In this document: positions 45,844-53,773 of the stretch, piece by piece | Layout of the letters: every line of letters begins with the position of its first letter | How positions within the stretch are numbered: the first letter of the stretch is position 1 | From: Prosthecobacter dejongeii | GTDB taxonomy: Bacteria > Verrucomicrobiota > Verrucomicrobiia > Verrucomicrobiales > Verrucomicrobiaceae | DNA: 64,000 bases | Direction: 5' to 3' | Assembly (NCBI RefSeq): GCF_014203045.1 | Contig: NZ_JACHIF010000010.1 | Coordinates: 1 to 64,000, forward strand | The notes under the pieces: model-generated | What the model was told of the DNA's origin: nothing | Database searches by the model: none | Seen by the model: only the letters and a program-made list of their open reading frames with translations | Made by a program: the position numbers and the translations under genes

Positions 45844-47736
45844 TTATTGACGATCAAAAAAACTTTCTTCGTCGCGATCACCGACTTTTAAATAACGGTA
45901 ATACACTTCCAATTGGAGTGTGCAGAGCACTTGGCGGTAAACAGGATCTGCAGCATCACCGCCTGGCCAGTTGGGCCGACCTTTTTTGAAGCTGCCATCG
46001 GGCTGTTGAGCGGCCAGGATCTGCGGCAAAAACTGTTCGTTGTAAAACTTCCAGTCATCGCCGCCTGCTTGGAAGAAGGTCTGAGTGTAATAGTACCAGC
46101 AGTAGAGATTACAGTTTTTATTCCAATCCAGAGGCTCTGCGGTGATGAACTCACGCAGGAATTTGATCCCCTTCTTGATGGAGGCTGTGCGACCTTTCCC
46201 CAGCGTCTGTAGCCCCAAGGACCCGACCCCGGTAAGGCTCCACTGATTGTAGTGGGCATCCCGGTTAGCGCCACCATAACCGCCATCCTTCGTTTGCTTC
46301 CGCTCGATGTAATCACAGGTGCGATCAATCGCGCTTTGAAGACCCGCGATTTTCAAACCTGTGTATTTGGCGGCTTTCAAGGCCTGATATTGCCAACCTG
46401 CCACCGATAGATCTTCACGAGAGGAGGTGGGTTTGCCTTCGGAGATGTTTTTGGTGTAATAATCCCAAGAACCTTCGCCGTTTTTCGCATCCGCTTTGTT
46501 CTGGGTTTTGATGATGAGCTGAACACCTTTTTCGAAGGCTTCACGCATGCCAGGAAGTTGCTTGCTGCCCAGACGTGCGAGAGTGTACATCTCCCCTAGA
46601 GCATAGGTGGCGATGCCATGCTCATACGCACCGGCGTTGCTTTTAAAGTCATCTGTGATGGCTCCGTGCTCATTGGTCTTGGACATCTCGATGAGGAAGA
46701 GAATGCCGCGCATGACATTGTCTCCATAAAAGGGAGAGTCTGGCGTTTCACAGCGCCCAAGGAAACACAGCAGAGCAAGGCCTGTCATTGCAGCCTTATT
46801 GCGTTTACCCCCGCCTTGTCCCCAAGATCCATCAGGGTTCTGCTGGCTTTTCAGCCACTCTAAAGAAGCTGATACTGCACGTTCACACTCAGGATTGCCA
46901 CCATTCTGGCGAAGTTTTTCTAAACGTTCCTGCGGAGAGCAACGCTGCTGCATGGAAGGCGGCAGACTGACAAAACCCTGCATCCCGCCCATGCCCATCC
47001 CAGTGCCAAAGCCACCACCAGCTCCTGCTTTGCCAAAGCCTCCACTGCCCAGGCTTCCGCCTCCCAGCATTGAGCTCACATCCGGCACATCCAGCAGATC
47101 TGGCGGCGCATCCGGCAGCGTCACGGCCGAGTTCTGGCTCGTGCTCACGATCTTCTTCATCGGCATCGTCTTGTTCAGCGATGTCCGCTTCTTCTGCTGC
47201 ACCTTGTGCTGCATCTCTGCAGAGGCCTGCGCTCCCTGCTGCGTGCCGCCACCAGGCAGGAAGTCCACCTGCTTCTGAATCATCTGCGTGCTGACCACGA
47301 TAGCACCGCCCACGATGAGGATACCTGCGTGAATAGCCAAGCTGAGGGTCAAAGAACCACCGCCTACCTTGCGCCAGGCTTTCACCAGCGCATTGGGTGG
47401 TTTCACGGTTTCAAAATGGTTGAGCGCCGGCGGGTGATACATTTCACCTGGGGCTGCATGGAGGGCCACGGCTTGCTCTTCTTCCACAGCGGCCACAGGC
47501 ACGGGGCCTGAGGTGGCCGAAGGCGCGGGGTATCCCGCAGGTGGCGGCGGCATCATGCCGGGCTGGACGGGGTAGCCAAGATTTGGCTGAACGGGATAAC
47601 CCAAGTTGTTTCCCTGCACGGGATACCCCAGATTGCCCGGCTGCGGGTAACCCGGTGGGTAAACCATGGGCTGCGTGGCACCTGGGTCCGAGGGCGGAGG
47701 GGGGCCACCCGGATTCGGAGGAGGGGTATCAGACAT
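45844..47736 (-). CDS. TonB-like membrane anchor fused to a squalene-cyclase/prenyltransferase-type toroid
   Basis: A 630-residue protein, last gene of the cluster. Residues 1-100 are Pro/Gly-rich with three copies of NLGYPVQ. A single membrane span (about 128-150) contains SLAIH (S132, H136), the SxxxH pattern that TonB and TolA use to couple to ExbB/ExbD. Then comes a Gly-rich periplasmic linker (residues 160-260). From about 283 on, repeats such as SLEWLKSQQNPDGSWG, RTCDYIERKQTKDGGYGG and IKFLREFITAEPLDWNKN are of the squalene-cyclase/prenyltransferase alpha/alpha-toroid type. No DxDD or other terpene-cyclase catalytic motif is seen. I infer a structural or binding toroid driven by the neighbouring proton channel, not an enzyme of terpene synthesis. 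Confidence 0.8.
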   Translation of the reverse strand: MSDTPPPNPGGPPPPSDPGATQPMVYPPGYPQPGNLGYPVQGNNLGYPVQPNLGYPVQPGMMPPPPAGYPAPSATSGPVPVAAVEEEQAVALHAAPGEMYHPPALNHFETVKPPNALVKAWRKVGGGSLTLSLAIHAGILIVGGAIVVSTQMIQKQVDFLPGGGTQQGAQASAEMQHKVQQKKRTSLNKTMPMKKIVSTSQNSAVTLPDAPPDLLDVPDVSSMLGGGSLGSGGFGKAGAGGGFGTGMGMGGMQGFVSLPPSMQQRCSPQERLEKLRQNGGNPECERAVSASLEWLKSQQNPDGSWGQGGGKRNKAAMTGLALLCFLGRCETPDSPFYGDNVMRGILFLIEMSKTNEHGAITDDFKSNAGAYEHGIATYALGEMYTLARLGSKQLPGMREAFEKGVQLIIKTQNKADAKNGEGSWDYYTKNISEGKPTSSREDLSVAGWQYQALKAAKYTGLKIAGLQSAIDRTCDYIERKQTKDGGYGGANRDAHYNQWSLTGVGSLGLQTLGKGRTASIKKGIKFLREFITAEPLDWNKNCNLYCWYYYTQTFFQAGGDDWKFYNEQFLPQILAAQQPDGSFKKGRPNWPGGDAADPVYRQVLCTLQLEVYYRYLKVGDRDEESFFDRQ

Positions 47737-47816: not shown

Positions 47817-48284
47817 TTAAAAATCCTCACCACCCACCGTAAAGGTCACATTGCCAATTTTAGCCTTGGCCATGGAGTTGAGTACATCAATGACACGCTC
47901 GTAGCGGGCTTGCTCCTCCGCTTGGATGGTCACCATCACCTTGGCATTGCGAAGGTCGGCTTCCTGCTTCAGGCGGAATAGTGTGTTGGTGAAATTGGGC
48001 AGCGCCTTGTCAGTGGGGGAATCGAATTCCTCTTCATTCAAAGTCACCACTCCTGATTCCTCCACCGTCACCATGATCTCGTCCGGTGGGGTGGTTTCAT
48101 CACTGAGCGCCGGGGTTCCCAGGCCAGGAAGTTGTGTCTTCAGTTCACGCTCCACTTTCACAGCACCAGCCATGACCATGAAAAAGAGCATGATGACGAA
48201 GACGACGTCAATCATGGGGGCGATCTGGAAGCCCATGGTGGCTTGGTCTGCCTCCAGGGCGCGATGTTTTTTACCGTGAGCCAT
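47817..48284 (-). CDS. ExbD/TolR family biopolymer transport protein, second copy
   Basis: A 155-residue protein with one N-terminal membrane helix and a periplasmic domain. The helix has FQIAPMIDVVFVIMLFFMV with the conserved proton-path Asp26. The periplasmic part ends RYERVIDVLNSMAKAKIGNVTF, the ExbD/TolR fold. It starts 4 bases after the stop of the first ExbD, so both are cotranslated. Start ATG at 48284; the frame extends to 48344. Unlike the first copy, it has an insert with LPGLGTPALSDETTPPDE. Confidence 0.92.
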   Translation of the reverse strand: MAHGKKHRALEADQATMGFQIAPMIDVVFVIMLFFMVMAGAVKVERELKTQLPGLGTPALSDETTPPDEIMVTVEESGVVTLNEEEFDSPTDKALPNFTNTLFRLKQEADLRNAKVMVTIQAEEQARYERVIDVLNSMAKAKIGNVTFTVGGEDF

Positions 48285-48288
48285 GCGA

Positions 48289-48726
48289 TCAGGAATCTTT
48301 GTTGAGGGCTGAAAAGGAAATGTCGTCAATGCCCGACTGGGCAATCAGCGCCATGACTTTCTGAATCTCCACCGCAGGCACATCGCGATCTCCGCGAATG
48401 ACGACCCGGTAGGTAGGATTGCTGTTTTTGCGTTGAGTGAGCGTGTTCACGATCTCCTCATTCTCCATCTCACGGTCGTCGAGCTTGATTTTAGACTCCT
48501 GCCGAGCAGCGATCCAGCGAACGTTGATGGCGGCCTCGAACATGGTGTTCTTGTCCTCCTTCTTCTTCGCATCGGCCGCCACAGGCAGCTTGATGTCTTT
48601 GTCAATTCTCAAGACCTGCGCCGAGGTGATGCTCATAAAGAAAATGAGCAGCACCAACAGCACGTCAATCATCGGAGCAATTTGGAACTCCGGTTCACCG
48701 TCTCCACCGCCTCCTCCTCCAGCCAT
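48289..48726 (-). CDS. ExbD/TolR family biopolymer transport protein, first copy
   Basis: A 145-residue protein. It opens with a Gly-rich run, then the membrane helix FQIAPMIDVLLVLLIFFMS with the conserved Asp21 and a periplasmic ExbD/TolR domain that ends ALIAQSGIDDISFSAL. It is a different sequence from the second copy (about 30-35% alike by eye outside the helix), so the two probably form a heteromeric pair in the motor. Located 43 bases after the ExbB gene. Confidence 0.93.
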   Translation of the reverse strand: MAGGGGGGDGEPEFQIAPMIDVLLVLLIFFMSITSAQVLRIDKDIKLPVAADAKKKEDKNTMFEAAINVRWIAARQESKIKLDDREMENEEIVNTLTQRKNSNPTYRVVIRGDRDVPAVEIQKVMALIAQSGIDDISFSALNKDS

Positions 48727-48769: not shown

Positions 48770-49630
48770 TTACACAGCCACAGCGACGGCTGCGCCATCG
48801 TTGCCACCAGCCACCCAGTTTGGCAGCGCAGCGTAGAACTCTTCTTCACCCACGTGAGCGTCTTTGAGATGCTCGTAAGGCATCTTACGGAACAGAGAGC
48901 TGATGATTTCCTGCAGACCGTGCATGGAGCCCTGAAGGCGATTGCGCAGAATGTAGAACACCATGAAAGCAGGCACAGCCACAGCCAGACCCGAAGCCGT
49001 AGCCACAAGCACCTCACCGATAGCGCCAGAGAGCTTGGAAGGATCACCCACACCACTGGTGCCCAGCGTTGCGAAGGCGCTCATCATCCCCGTCACGGTG
49101 CCGACCAGACCGATCATCGGAGTGCAAACACCCAACACCGAAAGGTAGTTGATGCGAGTCTGGATGGTGGCGTTGGTCTTGTTCAGTTCAGAGAACAATG
49201 CTTCTTCGACAGCGTTCTGACCTTCCCCCACGAAGCTCAGGCCCACACGGGTCACATCGGCAAAGTAGGAATTGTTGTTTTTAGCAAACTGGTAAGCACC
49301 GACGTAATCACCCGCACGGAAAAGATCCTGCACCTGACCTACCTGGGCAGGAGGGGCCATGCTTTTGAGTGCGGTACGCATCCAAAGGTCCACCGTCAGC
49401 CACACGAGTGCGACGGAGCAAAGGGTCAGCGGATACATCACCCAGCCACCTTCGCGGAAGCGGTCCATGAGGGTGTGCTGATGCACTTCAGGAGCGGCGG
49501 CAGCGGCTTCTCCAGCAGGGGCAGCAGCAGGCTCTTGGCCGTGCATGGGAGCTACCACCATCAGGTTGCCGGCGAGCAGCATGGCGCAGGCGCTAAGACG
49601 GACGAAGCCACGGAAAAAGGTCTGGATCAT
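48770..49630 (-). CDS. MotA/TolQ/ExbB proton channel family protein
   Basis: A 286-residue inner-membrane protein. It has an N-terminal signal-like hydrophobic segment, an Ala-rich periplasmic stretch, then three core helices: GGWVMYPLTLCSVALVWLTVD, SVLGVCTPMIGLVGTVTGMM and VLVATASGLAVAVPAFMVFY. The GLVGTVTGMMSAF segment, with its conserved Thr, is the ExbB/TolQ hallmark for the proton path. It should form a pentamer around the ExbD pair. The ATG at 49654 would add 8 residues; a still longer frame into the TPR gene is rejected. Confidence 0.93.
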   Translation of the reverse strand: MIQTFFRGFVRLSACAMLLAGNLMVVAPMHGQEPAAAPAGEAAAAAPEVHQHTLMDRFREGGWVMYPLTLCSVALVWLTVDLWMRTALKSMAPPAQVGQVQDLFRAGDYVGAYQFAKNNNSYFADVTRVGLSFVGEGQNAVEEALFSELNKTNATIQTRINYLSVLGVCTPMIGLVGTVTGMMSAFATLGTSGVGDPSKLSGAIGEVLVATASGLAVAVPAFMVFYILRNRLQGSMHGLQEIISSLFRKMPYEHLKDAHVGEEEFYAALPNWVAGGNDGAAVAVAV

Positions 49631-49697
49631 AGAGGGGTTATTGCGGGTGTGCATGGGAGGCAGTGGGTAGGTTGGGATTCGTTTAAAGAAAGGGTAA

Positions 49698-50588
49698 TTA
49701 CTGAGCGGCTTTTTCGGTTTTTTCGCCTTCGGCAGATTCTTCAGCTTCCTCTTCGGGCTCATTTTTCATGCCGTTGATGGCAGCCTTTTCTTTGGCTGCT
49801 ATATCAGCAATGGCAGAGCCTTTGTAGGAATCGGAAATACGGGTGAAGAGAGCCTGGGCGTCTTCATAACGTTTCATCTTGGCTAGCATTTGACCCGCTT
49901 TGAGTTCTGCATCTGGGACACGCTGCATTTGGGTGCCGTAAAAAACTGGAATGCGCAGATAAGCCATCAAAGCCTTTTCCCATTCCTTCTTTTTGGCGTG
50001 GATGTCGGCAATGATCATCCAGATGGAAGCTCCGACACCTGAGTCATTGGTATCCGAGAGGATGCTTTCGGCTTCATCGAGAATCGAGGTGTATTCGGAG
50101 GAAGTTTGGCGATCAATATCCAACTGAATAATGCGCAGAGACATCTTCTGTTCTGCCGTCAGAGGCAGCGTCTTGAGCAAGGGAATCAGCTTGATGGTCT
50201 CTTCGAACTTGCCCGCTTGGCTCAAGGTTTCCACGTAAGCGAAGAAAACAGGTTGGTACCAGTTACCTTCCACCTTTTCGAACTTTTGGAAGAAATCGAG
50301 CGACTTCTTCAAAAGGGCCAAAGCCTCTTCGGACTTGGCTTGAGCCATGAGGTTTTTGGCCTCAAGTAATTCCACTGGCTCAGGCCAATCTAGATAAGCG
50401 ATATTCTGCCACGGCAAAACGGTGGTCGCAGACTTATCACCGATCTTAATCGTGCGAACGATCTTGTCACCATCCATGGTGAATTCGGTATCAGGAATGC
50501 GTGTGCCATCTTTGAGCACGATGGCTTGGCCGAACGCTGCGCCTGAGAGCAGCACTGTCGCCAGAAGAATGAGGGTATGACGAAACAT
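49698..50588 (-). CDS. Exported TPR-type protein, 296 residues
   Basis: A signal peptide (MFRHTLILLATVLLSGAAFGQ) leads to a beta-strand domain of about 45 residues (AIVLKDGTRIPDTEFTMDGD...), then repeated helical pairs of TPR type such as LLEAKNLMAQAKSEEALALLKKS and ALMAYLRIPVF. The C-terminus is acidic and Glu-rich (EEEAEESAEGEK). It is probably periplasmic, between the giant TPR gene (38 bases upstream) and the proton channel (67 bases downstream). I expect it to link the motor to an envelope partner. Start ATG at 50588; the longer frame to 50630 overlaps the upstream gene. Confidence 0.85.
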   Translation of the reverse strand: MFRHTLILLATVLLSGAAFGQAIVLKDGTRIPDTEFTMDGDKIVRTIKIGDKSATTVLPWQNIAYLDWPEPVELLEAKNLMAQAKSEEALALLKKSLDFFQKFEKVEGNWYQPVFFAYVETLSQAGKFEETIKLIPLLKTLPLTAEQKMSLRIIQLDIDRQTSSEYTSILDEAESILSDTNDSGVGASIWMIIADIHAKKKEWEKALMAYLRIPVFYGTQMQRVPDAELKAGQMLAKMKRYEDAQALFTRISDSYKGSAIADIAAKEKAAINGMKNEPEEEAEESAEGEKTEKAAQ

Positions 50589-50626
50589 GGAAATGTGAGG
50601 AGAATAAGAGTTCACAAGGACAGGGA

Positions 50627-53521
50627 TCAAAGCTTGGAAAGTTCTTGTTCGGCCTGCTTCATTTCTGGCAGATCCTTCAGGTCCTGACGCTTGGTCATCT
50701 CGATGAGCAGCAGTTTAGCAGCTTCACGATCTGAATACTGACGCGGCGGCGTTTCAGTCGGAGCTGCCGGGCGGTTGAACTTGATGAAAGCCCGCGCACA
50801 CTGCACGTAGGACTGAGCCATCACACTCTTCCACTTTTGATGAGCAATGAAAACGCGCTGATAGAAGGGAATAGCTTCACCCCACTTCTGGTTAGCGAAC
50901 TCAATCTCTCCCTGCATGAAAAGGGAGGTCGCATGCGCCTCACCGCGCCACTCTTTCGTGTTGAGGATCTGCACATACAATTTCTTGGCATCGTCATACT
51001 TCTTCAGTTTGAAGAGCGTCTTCGCCTTCCCCAGAGTTGCATCAAGCAAGCGTGAGCTCGCAGCATAACCTTCGATAGCCGAAGTGAACAACTCCAAAGC
51101 TTTATCGAACTCACCCTTGGCGTATGCGATCTCTGCCAGACCCACAGCAGCACCATCGGCATACTCAGTCTCTTTATAGAATTCGTTCAGGCGATTGTAG
51201 CAGCCAGCTGCCTTGTCTAGATCACCCTTTGTGCGCGCATTGTCACCCACCGTGGCCAATAACATTGGGCTTAGGTCTTCAGGCTTAGCAACCTCAATAA
51301 TGACGGCAAAAAGCTTCTCCGCTTTGACGGGTTCACGCATCACTTTGGCGAGCCAGGCTTTGGCAAAAAGAATGCGCATTTGGGCAGTGCCATTCATGCC
51401 TGCCTGAGGTGGAGTAATCAGTTCTTCGAGTTGCTTTTCCACCTGTTCGTGAGTCAACTCCGCAGGTGCTGCTGGGGCACCTTCCACAGGCGCAGCTGGA
51501 CGGCGGCGCTTCGGCGCGACTAAGCTAACCAACTGCTGAATGAGACCTTCCACTTGCTCATTCGCAGGGTTTCCAATTTTAGGTTTGATGGCGGTCGCGA
51601 GAAGTTGTTTGGCCTCATCAATCTTATTTTCCTTCACTCGAGCACGGGAGATCCACAGCACAGCCTTGAGCTCCTGCTCTTCGTTGTCCTTGTGCGTATT
51701 GAGGTATTTTTGCCACATGTCCCCCAGCTCTTTCCACTTGCCCGTGCCCGCGTAGAGATCCGTAGCTTGGTCCATGGCGTAGGTCAGCACATCTTCAGAC
51801 TTGGCCTTATCCACGCCTGCGGCGAAATTGGCCAAGGCTTTGTCATAATCCCCTTTTTGGTTGTAGGCATCGCCTAACAAACTGTGCACTTGGCCGATGT
51901 TCTGGTCATTCGGGGCATCCTTGATGATGCTTTCCAAGTCTGCCATCGCATTGTCCACGTCGCGACTTTGAAATTTGATGAAAGCCAGACGATAACGAGC
52001 ATCCACGACATACTGCCCTTTCGGGTTTTCCTTCATGTAGTTATTCAGTGCCTTCGTGGTATTGATCGAGTCATTCTGATAGAAGTAAATGAGAGCGATG
52101 CGATACAGGCCGTCATCCTTGTAAGCGGAGTCTGGAAACTCATTCAGCAGAAGTTCAAAAGTGGTCCGCGCATCGTCAAAACGCTGCATTTCAAACAGCA
52201 CGTTTCCACGCAGAAAGCGCAGGCGCTCCTTGTCGGCTTTGGGAAAACCTTCAGCTTTGTTAAAGGCATCCGCGGCCTCTTGCAGCTTACCATTTTCATA
52301 AGCAAGCATGCCGAACATTTCCGATACCGTGCCTAAATCTGCACCATCCGGAAAATCATTGATGTAGCGTTCGCAAAGTTTGCGGGCTGACTTCACACGC
52401 TTGAGCTGGGCATTGGCAATGATCATGCCGAAGACGCAGCGGTCACGCTGAGGGAATTCCTTGAACTCCTTCACGATGACATCAAACGCCAAAAGAGACT
52501 CCCAGAAACGCCCCATTTCAAAGTAACAGCGGCCCAAGCGGTAATAAAGAGAAGCATCGTAGTCGGTGCGTTTTTCGATCTCTTCCAGCAATCCATTGTT
52601 GGTTTTGAGCTTCTCATCGAGCTCTTCCTTGGTGCCCTTGATCGGCCCTTTGCCTGGCGTTTTCAGACTCTGTTCGATTTTAGCAATCACGTCTTTTTGG
52701 AGACGGGTGATCTCGCTTTTACGGCGCACAAACTGGTAAGCCCCGAGAGCTTCGCGGAAGCTTTTTTTCTCCAGCATCTGGTCACCTAAACGCAGATAAA
52801 TGTTGTTCATCTGGGCCACATTATCCCCACCCGTGGCGAAGCCTTTGACCTTCTCCATGAGCTCACCTGCGGCATCCAGGTCACCTTTGGCGACATGTAG
52901 GTCCGCTGCCATCATGGCCGCCTGGATAGCTTCGGAGCTACGAATACCACCTTCAAGAACCGACTTTAAGACAGCGAGCGCCTCATCCACCTTATCTTGT
53001 TTTTTCAAAGCTTCTGCCACGAAAAGACCTGCTTCGGATTTGAGGTCGGGAGACTGCGCGACGACCTCCTTGAGGATGGTGATGCCTTTGTCAGCATCCC
53101 CTTTATTGATGTAACTGCGCCCGAGCGCCATCTTCACCGCGCTGAGCTGTTCACCTTCTGGGAAAGACTTGATGTATTCCTCCAAGGCAGCGATAGCCTT
53201 GTCATACTCATTGAGATTGAAGTACGCGGCCCCTTCGATGAAGAGCACCTGGGCAAAGGGCTTGTTATTCAGGTTTTTCTTCACCTGATCAATCTTCGAA
53301 AGCGCCTCAGGATATTTTGCCTCTTGGAAAAGACGCATGGCCTCAGACATGAGGGCCTCCGTCTCCTGCTGAATATTCAAAGCACCCGTAGGTGCAGCTG
53401 GTGCCCCGGGGGCAGCTGGGGCTGCAGGCGGTGGGGCCTGGGCGATCAATTGAGGCCCAGAAACAAGGACAAGAGCAAAGCAAAGTGCGTTTCGCATGGC
53501 AGACAAAGACGAGTAAATCAT
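50627..53521 (-). CDS. Giant exported TPR protein, 964 residues
   Basis: A signal peptide (MRNALCFALVLVSGPQLIAQ) is followed by a Pro/Ala spacer and then about 20 helical repeats of TPR/Tol-Pal (YbgF-like) type from residue 40 to the end, for example AMRLFQEAKYPEALSKIDQV, AAYFNLNEYDKAIAALEEYI and EIAYAKGEFDKALELFTSAI. A Pro/Ala-rich break near residue 665-685 (RRRPAAPVEGAPAAPAE) splits the array into two parts. It is the first gene of the cluster. TPR arrays of this size usually scaffold multiprotein complexes; here the partner would be periplasmic. Start choice between ATGs at 53521 and 53497 is open. Confidence 0.85.
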   Translation of the reverse strand: MIYSSLSAMRNALCFALVLVSGPQLIAQAPPPAAPAAPGAPAAPTGALNIQQETEALMSEAMRLFQEAKYPEALSKIDQVKKNLNNKPFAQVLFIEGAAYFNLNEYDKAIAALEEYIKSFPEGEQLSAVKMALGRSYINKGDADKGITILKEVVAQSPDLKSEAGLFVAEALKKQDKVDEALAVLKSVLEGGIRSSEAIQAAMMAADLHVAKGDLDAAGELMEKVKGFATGGDNVAQMNNIYLRLGDQMLEKKSFREALGAYQFVRRKSEITRLQKDVIAKIEQSLKTPGKGPIKGTKEELDEKLKTNNGLLEEIEKRTDYDASLYYRLGRCYFEMGRFWESLLAFDVIVKEFKEFPQRDRCVFGMIIANAQLKRVKSARKLCERYINDFPDGADLGTVSEMFGMLAYENGKLQEAADAFNKAEGFPKADKERLRFLRGNVLFEMQRFDDARTTFELLLNEFPDSAYKDDGLYRIALIYFYQNDSINTTKALNNYMKENPKGQYVVDARYRLAFIKFQSRDVDNAMADLESIIKDAPNDQNIGQVHSLLGDAYNQKGDYDKALANFAAGVDKAKSEDVLTYAMDQATDLYAGTGKWKELGDMWQKYLNTHKDNEEQELKAVLWISRARVKENKIDEAKQLLATAIKPKIGNPANEQVEGLIQQLVSLVAPKRRRPAAPVEGAPAAPAELTHEQVEKQLEELITPPQAGMNGTAQMRILFAKAWLAKVMREPVKAEKLFAVIIEVAKPEDLSPMLLATVGDNARTKGDLDKAAGCYNRLNEFYKETEYADGAAVGLAEIAYAKGEFDKALELFTSAIEGYAASSRLLDATLGKAKTLFKLKKYDDAKKLYVQILNTKEWRGEAHATSLFMQGEIEFANQKWGEAIPFYQRVFIAHQKWKSVMAQSYVQCARAFIKFNRPAAPTETPPRQYSDREAAKLLLIEMTKRQDLKDLPEMKQAEQELSKL

Positions 53522-53773
53522 GGTGGACCTGAACAGAACAATCACGTTTCTGACACGCACTCCGGGGAGGAATGATCAAAGATAATCCGAAGACGTTGAA
53601 TCACAGGGCAATAACCAGACATTTTTCGTGAAAAAGGAAGCCGAGATTACCAACAGCACTTTTTTTGTCACGAACGATCTGATTGATGACCCAGAAGAAA
53701 CACAGAAAATCCCCCGGTTTGCCTAATTTCGAGGGCCTGGAACGATTCAGAATCACCTTAACAGAAGCCGTTT

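Follow-up and report, generated by a model that had tools for sequence, protein, structure and literature searches.

A squalene-cyclase-fold toroid on a Ser-His membrane span, a candidate TonB-like transducer encoded beside an ExbB-ExbD-ExbD motor in Verrucomicrobiota

The toroid protein and its operon

The window, a 64,000-nucleotide stretch of the Prosthecobacter dejongeii genome, contains a same-strand operon of six genes on the minus strand, in the order TPR-TPR-ExbB-ExbD-ExbD-toroid, with the toroid gene last. It opens with two TPR proteins of up to 977 aa (50627..53560) and up to 310 aa (49698..50630), both with a probable signal peptide and an uncertain start codon. These are followed by ExbB (48770..49654), which carries an N-terminal signal-peptide-like segment and whose start codon is likewise uncertain, a first ExbD (48289..48726) and a second ExbD (47817..48284), its start codon taken at MAHGKKH. 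The intergenic gaps are -4, 10, 43, 4 and 80 bp. The ExbB and the two ExbD genes, directly upstream of the toroid gene, were absent from the initial annotation. Aligned to a solved TolQ, the ExbB retains both pore threonines, and both ExbDs retain the aspartate of the PMID motif. A Trp of ExbB contacts the His of TonB; read from the sequence, the Trp in TM1 of the window's ExbB is not at the spacing of that residue. Other ExbB/ExbD loci in the same genome, which was surveyed as sampled stretches, hold a TonB-like gene with SVAIH (L051) and one with a TonB_C domain (PF03544, L049).

The last gene (45844..47736, minus strand) encodes a 630-aa protein in which the ORF list, Pfam and AlphaFold2 delineate a Pro-rich cytoplasmic tail, one span, a Gly-rich linker and a toroid. 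The only strong span in the sequence comprises residues 128-152 (47281..47355). Within it, S132 (47341-47343) and H136 (47329-47331) stand in the SxxxH arrangement exactly where the initial annotation had placed them. The periplasmic linker, residues 153-260 (46957..47280; QVDFLPGGG..., LPDAP..., Gly-rich), was delimited by module comparison, and the squalene-cyclase-fold toroid, residues 265-616 (45889..46944), by Pfam, profile matching, AlphaFold2 and a structure search.

PF13243, the squalene-hopene cyclase C-terminal domain, scored above the Pfam cut-off, and a squalene-hopene cyclase profile matched the toroid with an E value of 8.8e-13. The AlphaFold2 model, calculated for residues 110-630 with 36 sequences, has a helix over residues 128-152, then a linker of low confidence and, from about residue 260 onwards, a confidently predicted (alpha/alpha)6-type toroid with pLDDT mostly above 80. 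A structure search with this model retrieved squalene-hopene cyclase 2sqc (Z 25.6, rmsd 3.1 over 290 residues), with sugar epimerases and GH76 enzymes matching nearly as well. The predicted fold is of the (alpha/alpha)6 type and singles out no function among cyclase, epimerase and hydrolase; since the fold search does not separate these toroids, we claim no enzyme function. The motif check found DxDD neither in the protein nor in 35 toroids from relatives, in agreement with the earlier description of a squalene-cyclase-type repeat domain lacking this motif. The thioester (TED-like) CxEQ motif was also absent from the protein, Pfam gave no match to the TonB C-terminal domain PF03544, and by Pfam, AlphaFold2 and structure search the C-terminus holds the toroid instead of a vWA fold. 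Polar residues conserved in the toroid include E330, E382, D442, Y548, Y549 and others, in an alignment of members picked for having the span His, where the invariance of the His is not counted as evidence.

Three copies of NLGYPVQ, starting at residues 35, 44 and 52, occupy residues 35-58 of the Pro-rich cytoplasmic tail (47563..47634, minus strand), confirming an earlier observation. Among the tails checked, exact NLGYPVQ occurs only in the two toroid paralogues of this genome. Different GYP-rich tracts occur in relatives from the family, and tails in other families are mostly 20-60 residues long with no repeats. The repeats are lineage-specific and the tail is not conserved, so that a conserved partner-binding element is unlikely; the initial annotation had suggested that this tail could bind a partner.

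Conservation of the span Ser-His pair

The best 80 matches of a contig scan all belong to Verrucomicrobiota, the phylum covered by our conservation survey, and the nearest named relatives among them are Verrucomicrobiaceae, including Prosthecobacter. Of 288 Verrucomicrobiota genomes, 159 contain toroid homologues, and the order TPR-ExbB-ExbD-ExbD-toroid recurs in many families (60 loci of the phylum). In six loci (L284, L285, L286, L288, L290 and L134) the next genes downstream of the toroid are a second ExbB-ExbD pair, after which a TPR protein of about 800 aa is often encoded.

The combination of span and toroid recurs in 118 proteins of the phylum with a clear span, 101 of which have the span His; among the toroid proteins adjoining ExbB and ExbD the proportion is 46/49. 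The residue four positions before the His is Ser in 84 of the 101 His-bearing proteins, Ala in 16 and Thr in one. These counts, and the frequencies that follow, take in every member, with or without the His. After weighting over 35 clusters, H136 has the highest single-residue frequency in the span core (0.74), followed by S132 (0.65; 0.94 for Ser, Ala or Thr). The two residues singled out in the initial annotation are thus the most conserved positions of the span, rather than varying freely among homologues. Because SxxxH is found in only 2 of 57 other one- or two-span ORFs of the same loci, both of them vWA-type and beside ExbB-ExbD-ExbD, its presence in the toroid span exceeds chance. From these alignments the His appears to be the key residue, as in TonB, with the position of S132 often being Ala elsewhere. 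The published span motif of transducers is Ser-x3-His-x6-Leu-x3-Ser (SHLS; PMC12215075). At position 143 (His+7), Leu has a frequency of 0.61 across the family but the window protein has Gly, and at position 147 (His+11) no Ser occurs across the family, the window protein having Val (35 weighted clusters).

In a 115-toroid tree the span His changes state only five times. The losses fall in an Akkermansia-like group, in a set that includes L122, L125, L111, L133 and L101, and in two L123 copies. The association between span His and motor adjacency (Fisher p 0.035, 118 proteins) is unsupported once the tree is used, which leaves few informative pairs, and many His-bearing toroid proteins have no motor gene beside them.

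L122 and L125 are real exceptions, adjoining ExbB-ExbD-ExbD yet lacking the span His, and they may couple to the motor differently. Toroid proteins without the His are encoded at L122:5290-8893, L125:5828-7369, L111:5969-7492 and L133:5674-7296, and those of L122 and L133 have a cytoplasmic N-terminus (HGLRQPPDSGEYKWAR-like) in common. The Akkermansia-like group (L068, L070 and L139, from genomes G035, G031 and G060) has no motor gene beside its toroids. Its three loci, as well as L171 and L172, encode two or three tandem toroid proteins that have lost the span His, and the same genomes have an ExbB-ExbD-ExbD operon elsewhere with no toroid beside it. In the toroid protein at L123:1260-2780 the span contains SLIVN, Asn replacing the His (SxxxN); Asn is described as fully replacing His20 of TonB (Swayne and Postle 2011, as cited in PMC8928145). 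Toroids on other anchors also lack the His. At L073:6316-9111 a Ser/Thr kinase is fused to the same kind of toroid through a span without His, an architecture which suggests that such a toroid may also work as a sensor in the periplasm, and the signal-peptide (secreted) toroids of L044 and L062 have no His span.

A span-linker module shared by different output domains

Residues ~108-262, comprising the span and the linker with its QVDFLPGGG..., LPDAP... and Gly-rich stretches, form a module that recurs with other C-termini. The 31 non-toroid module proteins examined comprise 13 with a PA14-like domain and 18 with a vWA domain, and the span His is kept in all 27 that were aligned. The gene after ExbD-ExbD encodes a toroid protein in most loci and a vWA protein in L176, L180, L185 and L188; L135 and L140 have a toroid there, with a PA14-like protein next to it downstream. 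The module bears PA14-like outputs at L042:6146-7462, L135:5366-6718, L140:4897-6240, L191, L195, L205 and L208, with L191 and L195 having tandem PA14-vWA-PA14 on it. The numbers of modules and motors are unequal: in 26 genomes we counted 127 module proteins against 28 ExbB genes close to that of the window.

Each of five genomes has two toroid paralogues whose modules share 93.8-100% nucleotide identity, compared with 69.8-84.5% for their toroids and with only 66-78% for the same modules between genomes. In the genome studied here, window positions 46957-47590 and L041:8060-8690 are about 97-98% identical between the two toroid paralogues, and this identity ends at the toroid boundary. Such near-identical stretches may be a reason why many draft contigs break inside the toroid gene. 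These identities look like the outcome of repeated gene conversion that is confined to the docking half and holds the module near-identical while the toroids diverge. This would be expected if both paralogues must fit the same motor, although conversion can also arise from mere similarity, with no functional need. We consider it about an even chance that a single ExbB-ExbD-ExbD acts as a hub motor, driving interchangeable toroid, PA14-like and vWA transducers with a gene-converted docking module, throughout the phylum.

Proposed coupling to the motor and comparison with known systems

In TonB and TolA, the Ser-His pair contacts ExbB/TolQ and the strand after the span contacts ExbD (PMC12215075, PMC10907165). 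By analogy, we infer that the span of the window protein would dock outside the ExbB pentamer via S132 and H136, and that the stretch just after it would probably engage the periplasmic domains of ExbD. The candidate ExbD-binding strand, which we compared by sequence as D-box-like, is VDFLP in the window protein and an alternating hydrophobic segment (e.g. AAIQVQIMEP) in other families. Protons flowing through the motor would then move or pull the flexible linker, and the toroid at its end would pass this movement to a partner in the periplasm or outer membrane, perhaps via the co-encoded TPR proteins. With span and linker acting as a standard plug, the same motor would probably also drive the second-toroid, PA14-like and vWA paralogues.

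We accordingly weigh four readings of the protein, and place a probability of roughly three in four on its being a transducer of the TonB/TolA kind, served by a dedicated ExbB-ExbD-ExbD proton motor, with the toroid as its output. The operon found across the phylum, the counts of the span His, the intact motor residues, the shared module and the His-less toroids on other anchors all argue for such coupling, as do the 127 module proteins per 28 close ExbBs, the homogenisation of the module within genomes and the docking of the same His in published AF3 models of the sister vWA proteins. Counted against it are the His-less L122 and L125, the His-bearing proteins with no adjacent motor, the Trp spacing in TM1 of ExbB and the possibility of conversion without functional need. 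The toroid might instead be a sensor or brake that, on binding a ligand in the periplasm, turns the motor on or off via the span, rather than being pulled. The kinase-span-toroid fusion of L073 has a typical sensor layout, and the usual ligands of toroid folds are small molecules or glycans; we nevertheless regard this as unlikely, as the same span-linker module bears unrelated outputs, including vWA, as expected of effectors, and the long flexible linker resembles that of TonB.

Still less probable is a toroid enzyme or binding protein anchored in the membrane and facing the periplasm, for which the His would serve span packing and the motor genes would be incidental neighbours. The conserved polar residues of the toroid, its structural match to sugar epimerases and GH76 hydrolases, nearly as good as that to the cyclase, and the three motor-adjacent toroid proteins without His are in favour of this reading, against which stand the phylum-wide operon with ExbB-ExbD-ExbD, a Ser-His pair spaced and positioned as in the TonB/TolA motif, and the lack of this pair in toroids with other anchors. 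A terpene (squalene) cyclase, as the PF13243 and profile matches might imply, is close to refuted by the missing DxDD motif; moreover, the protein has one toroid only, predicted to be periplasmic, and scores 28.5 bits where the NCBIfam cyclase cut-off is 322.7 bits. The coupling to ExbB/ExbD proposed in the initial annotation has withstood the comparison of homologous sequences, and gains from the operon, the shared docking module and the negative controls.

Ideas on how energy from the inner membrane reaches the outer membrane have been modelled on TonB and TolA. If toroid, PA14-like and vWA proteins indeed use the same motor plug, 5:2 motors would be general-purpose drives, and one proton motor would handle several mechanical jobs in the cell envelope of Verrucomicrobiota. 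The shared span-linker makes this one-motor, many-arms idea directly testable, and the conserved operon provides a concrete gene set, in a large and little-studied phylum, for finding what else such motors pull.

The closest precedent comes from the PVC group, where Williams-Jones et al. 2025 (PMC12204202) described vWA force transducers with the same span motif, encoded with TPR, TolQ-like and twin TolR-like genes, whose AF3 models dock through the same His. Squalene, prenyltransferase and PA14 are not mentioned there. In the open-licence literature, preprints aside, we found no description of a toroid or PA14 output on such transducers, and nothing linking squalene or SxxxH with ExbB/ExbD or TonB. 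The new TonB-like class suggested by the initial annotation is therefore partly pre-empted by the vWA transducers; what is new are the toroid and PA14-like outputs and a set of modular proteins that apparently have one motor in common.

The window protein resembles the PVC vWA transducers in its Ser-His span, flexible linker, globular end and gene position, with TPR, TolQ-like and twin TolR-like genes upstream, and some of the vWA proteins found here bear its own span-linker module, but its output is a squalene-cyclase-fold toroid (or, in relatives, a PA14-like domain) and not vWA. With squalene-hopene cyclases and other (alpha/alpha)6 toroids it shares the fold and QW-like repeats, whereas, unlike the cyclases, it has no DxDD and a single toroid, which a periplasmic linker carries at its end. 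Like TonB and TolA, it combines a single N-terminal Ser-x3-His span and a long flexible periplasmic part with encoded ExbB/ExbD (TolQ/TolR) partners; unlike them, it lacks TonB_C and the Leu and Ser of SHLS (G143 and V147), and has a long cytoplasmic Pro-rich tail and a toroid output. It is thus neither a TonB nor a vWA transducer, and appears to work like both.
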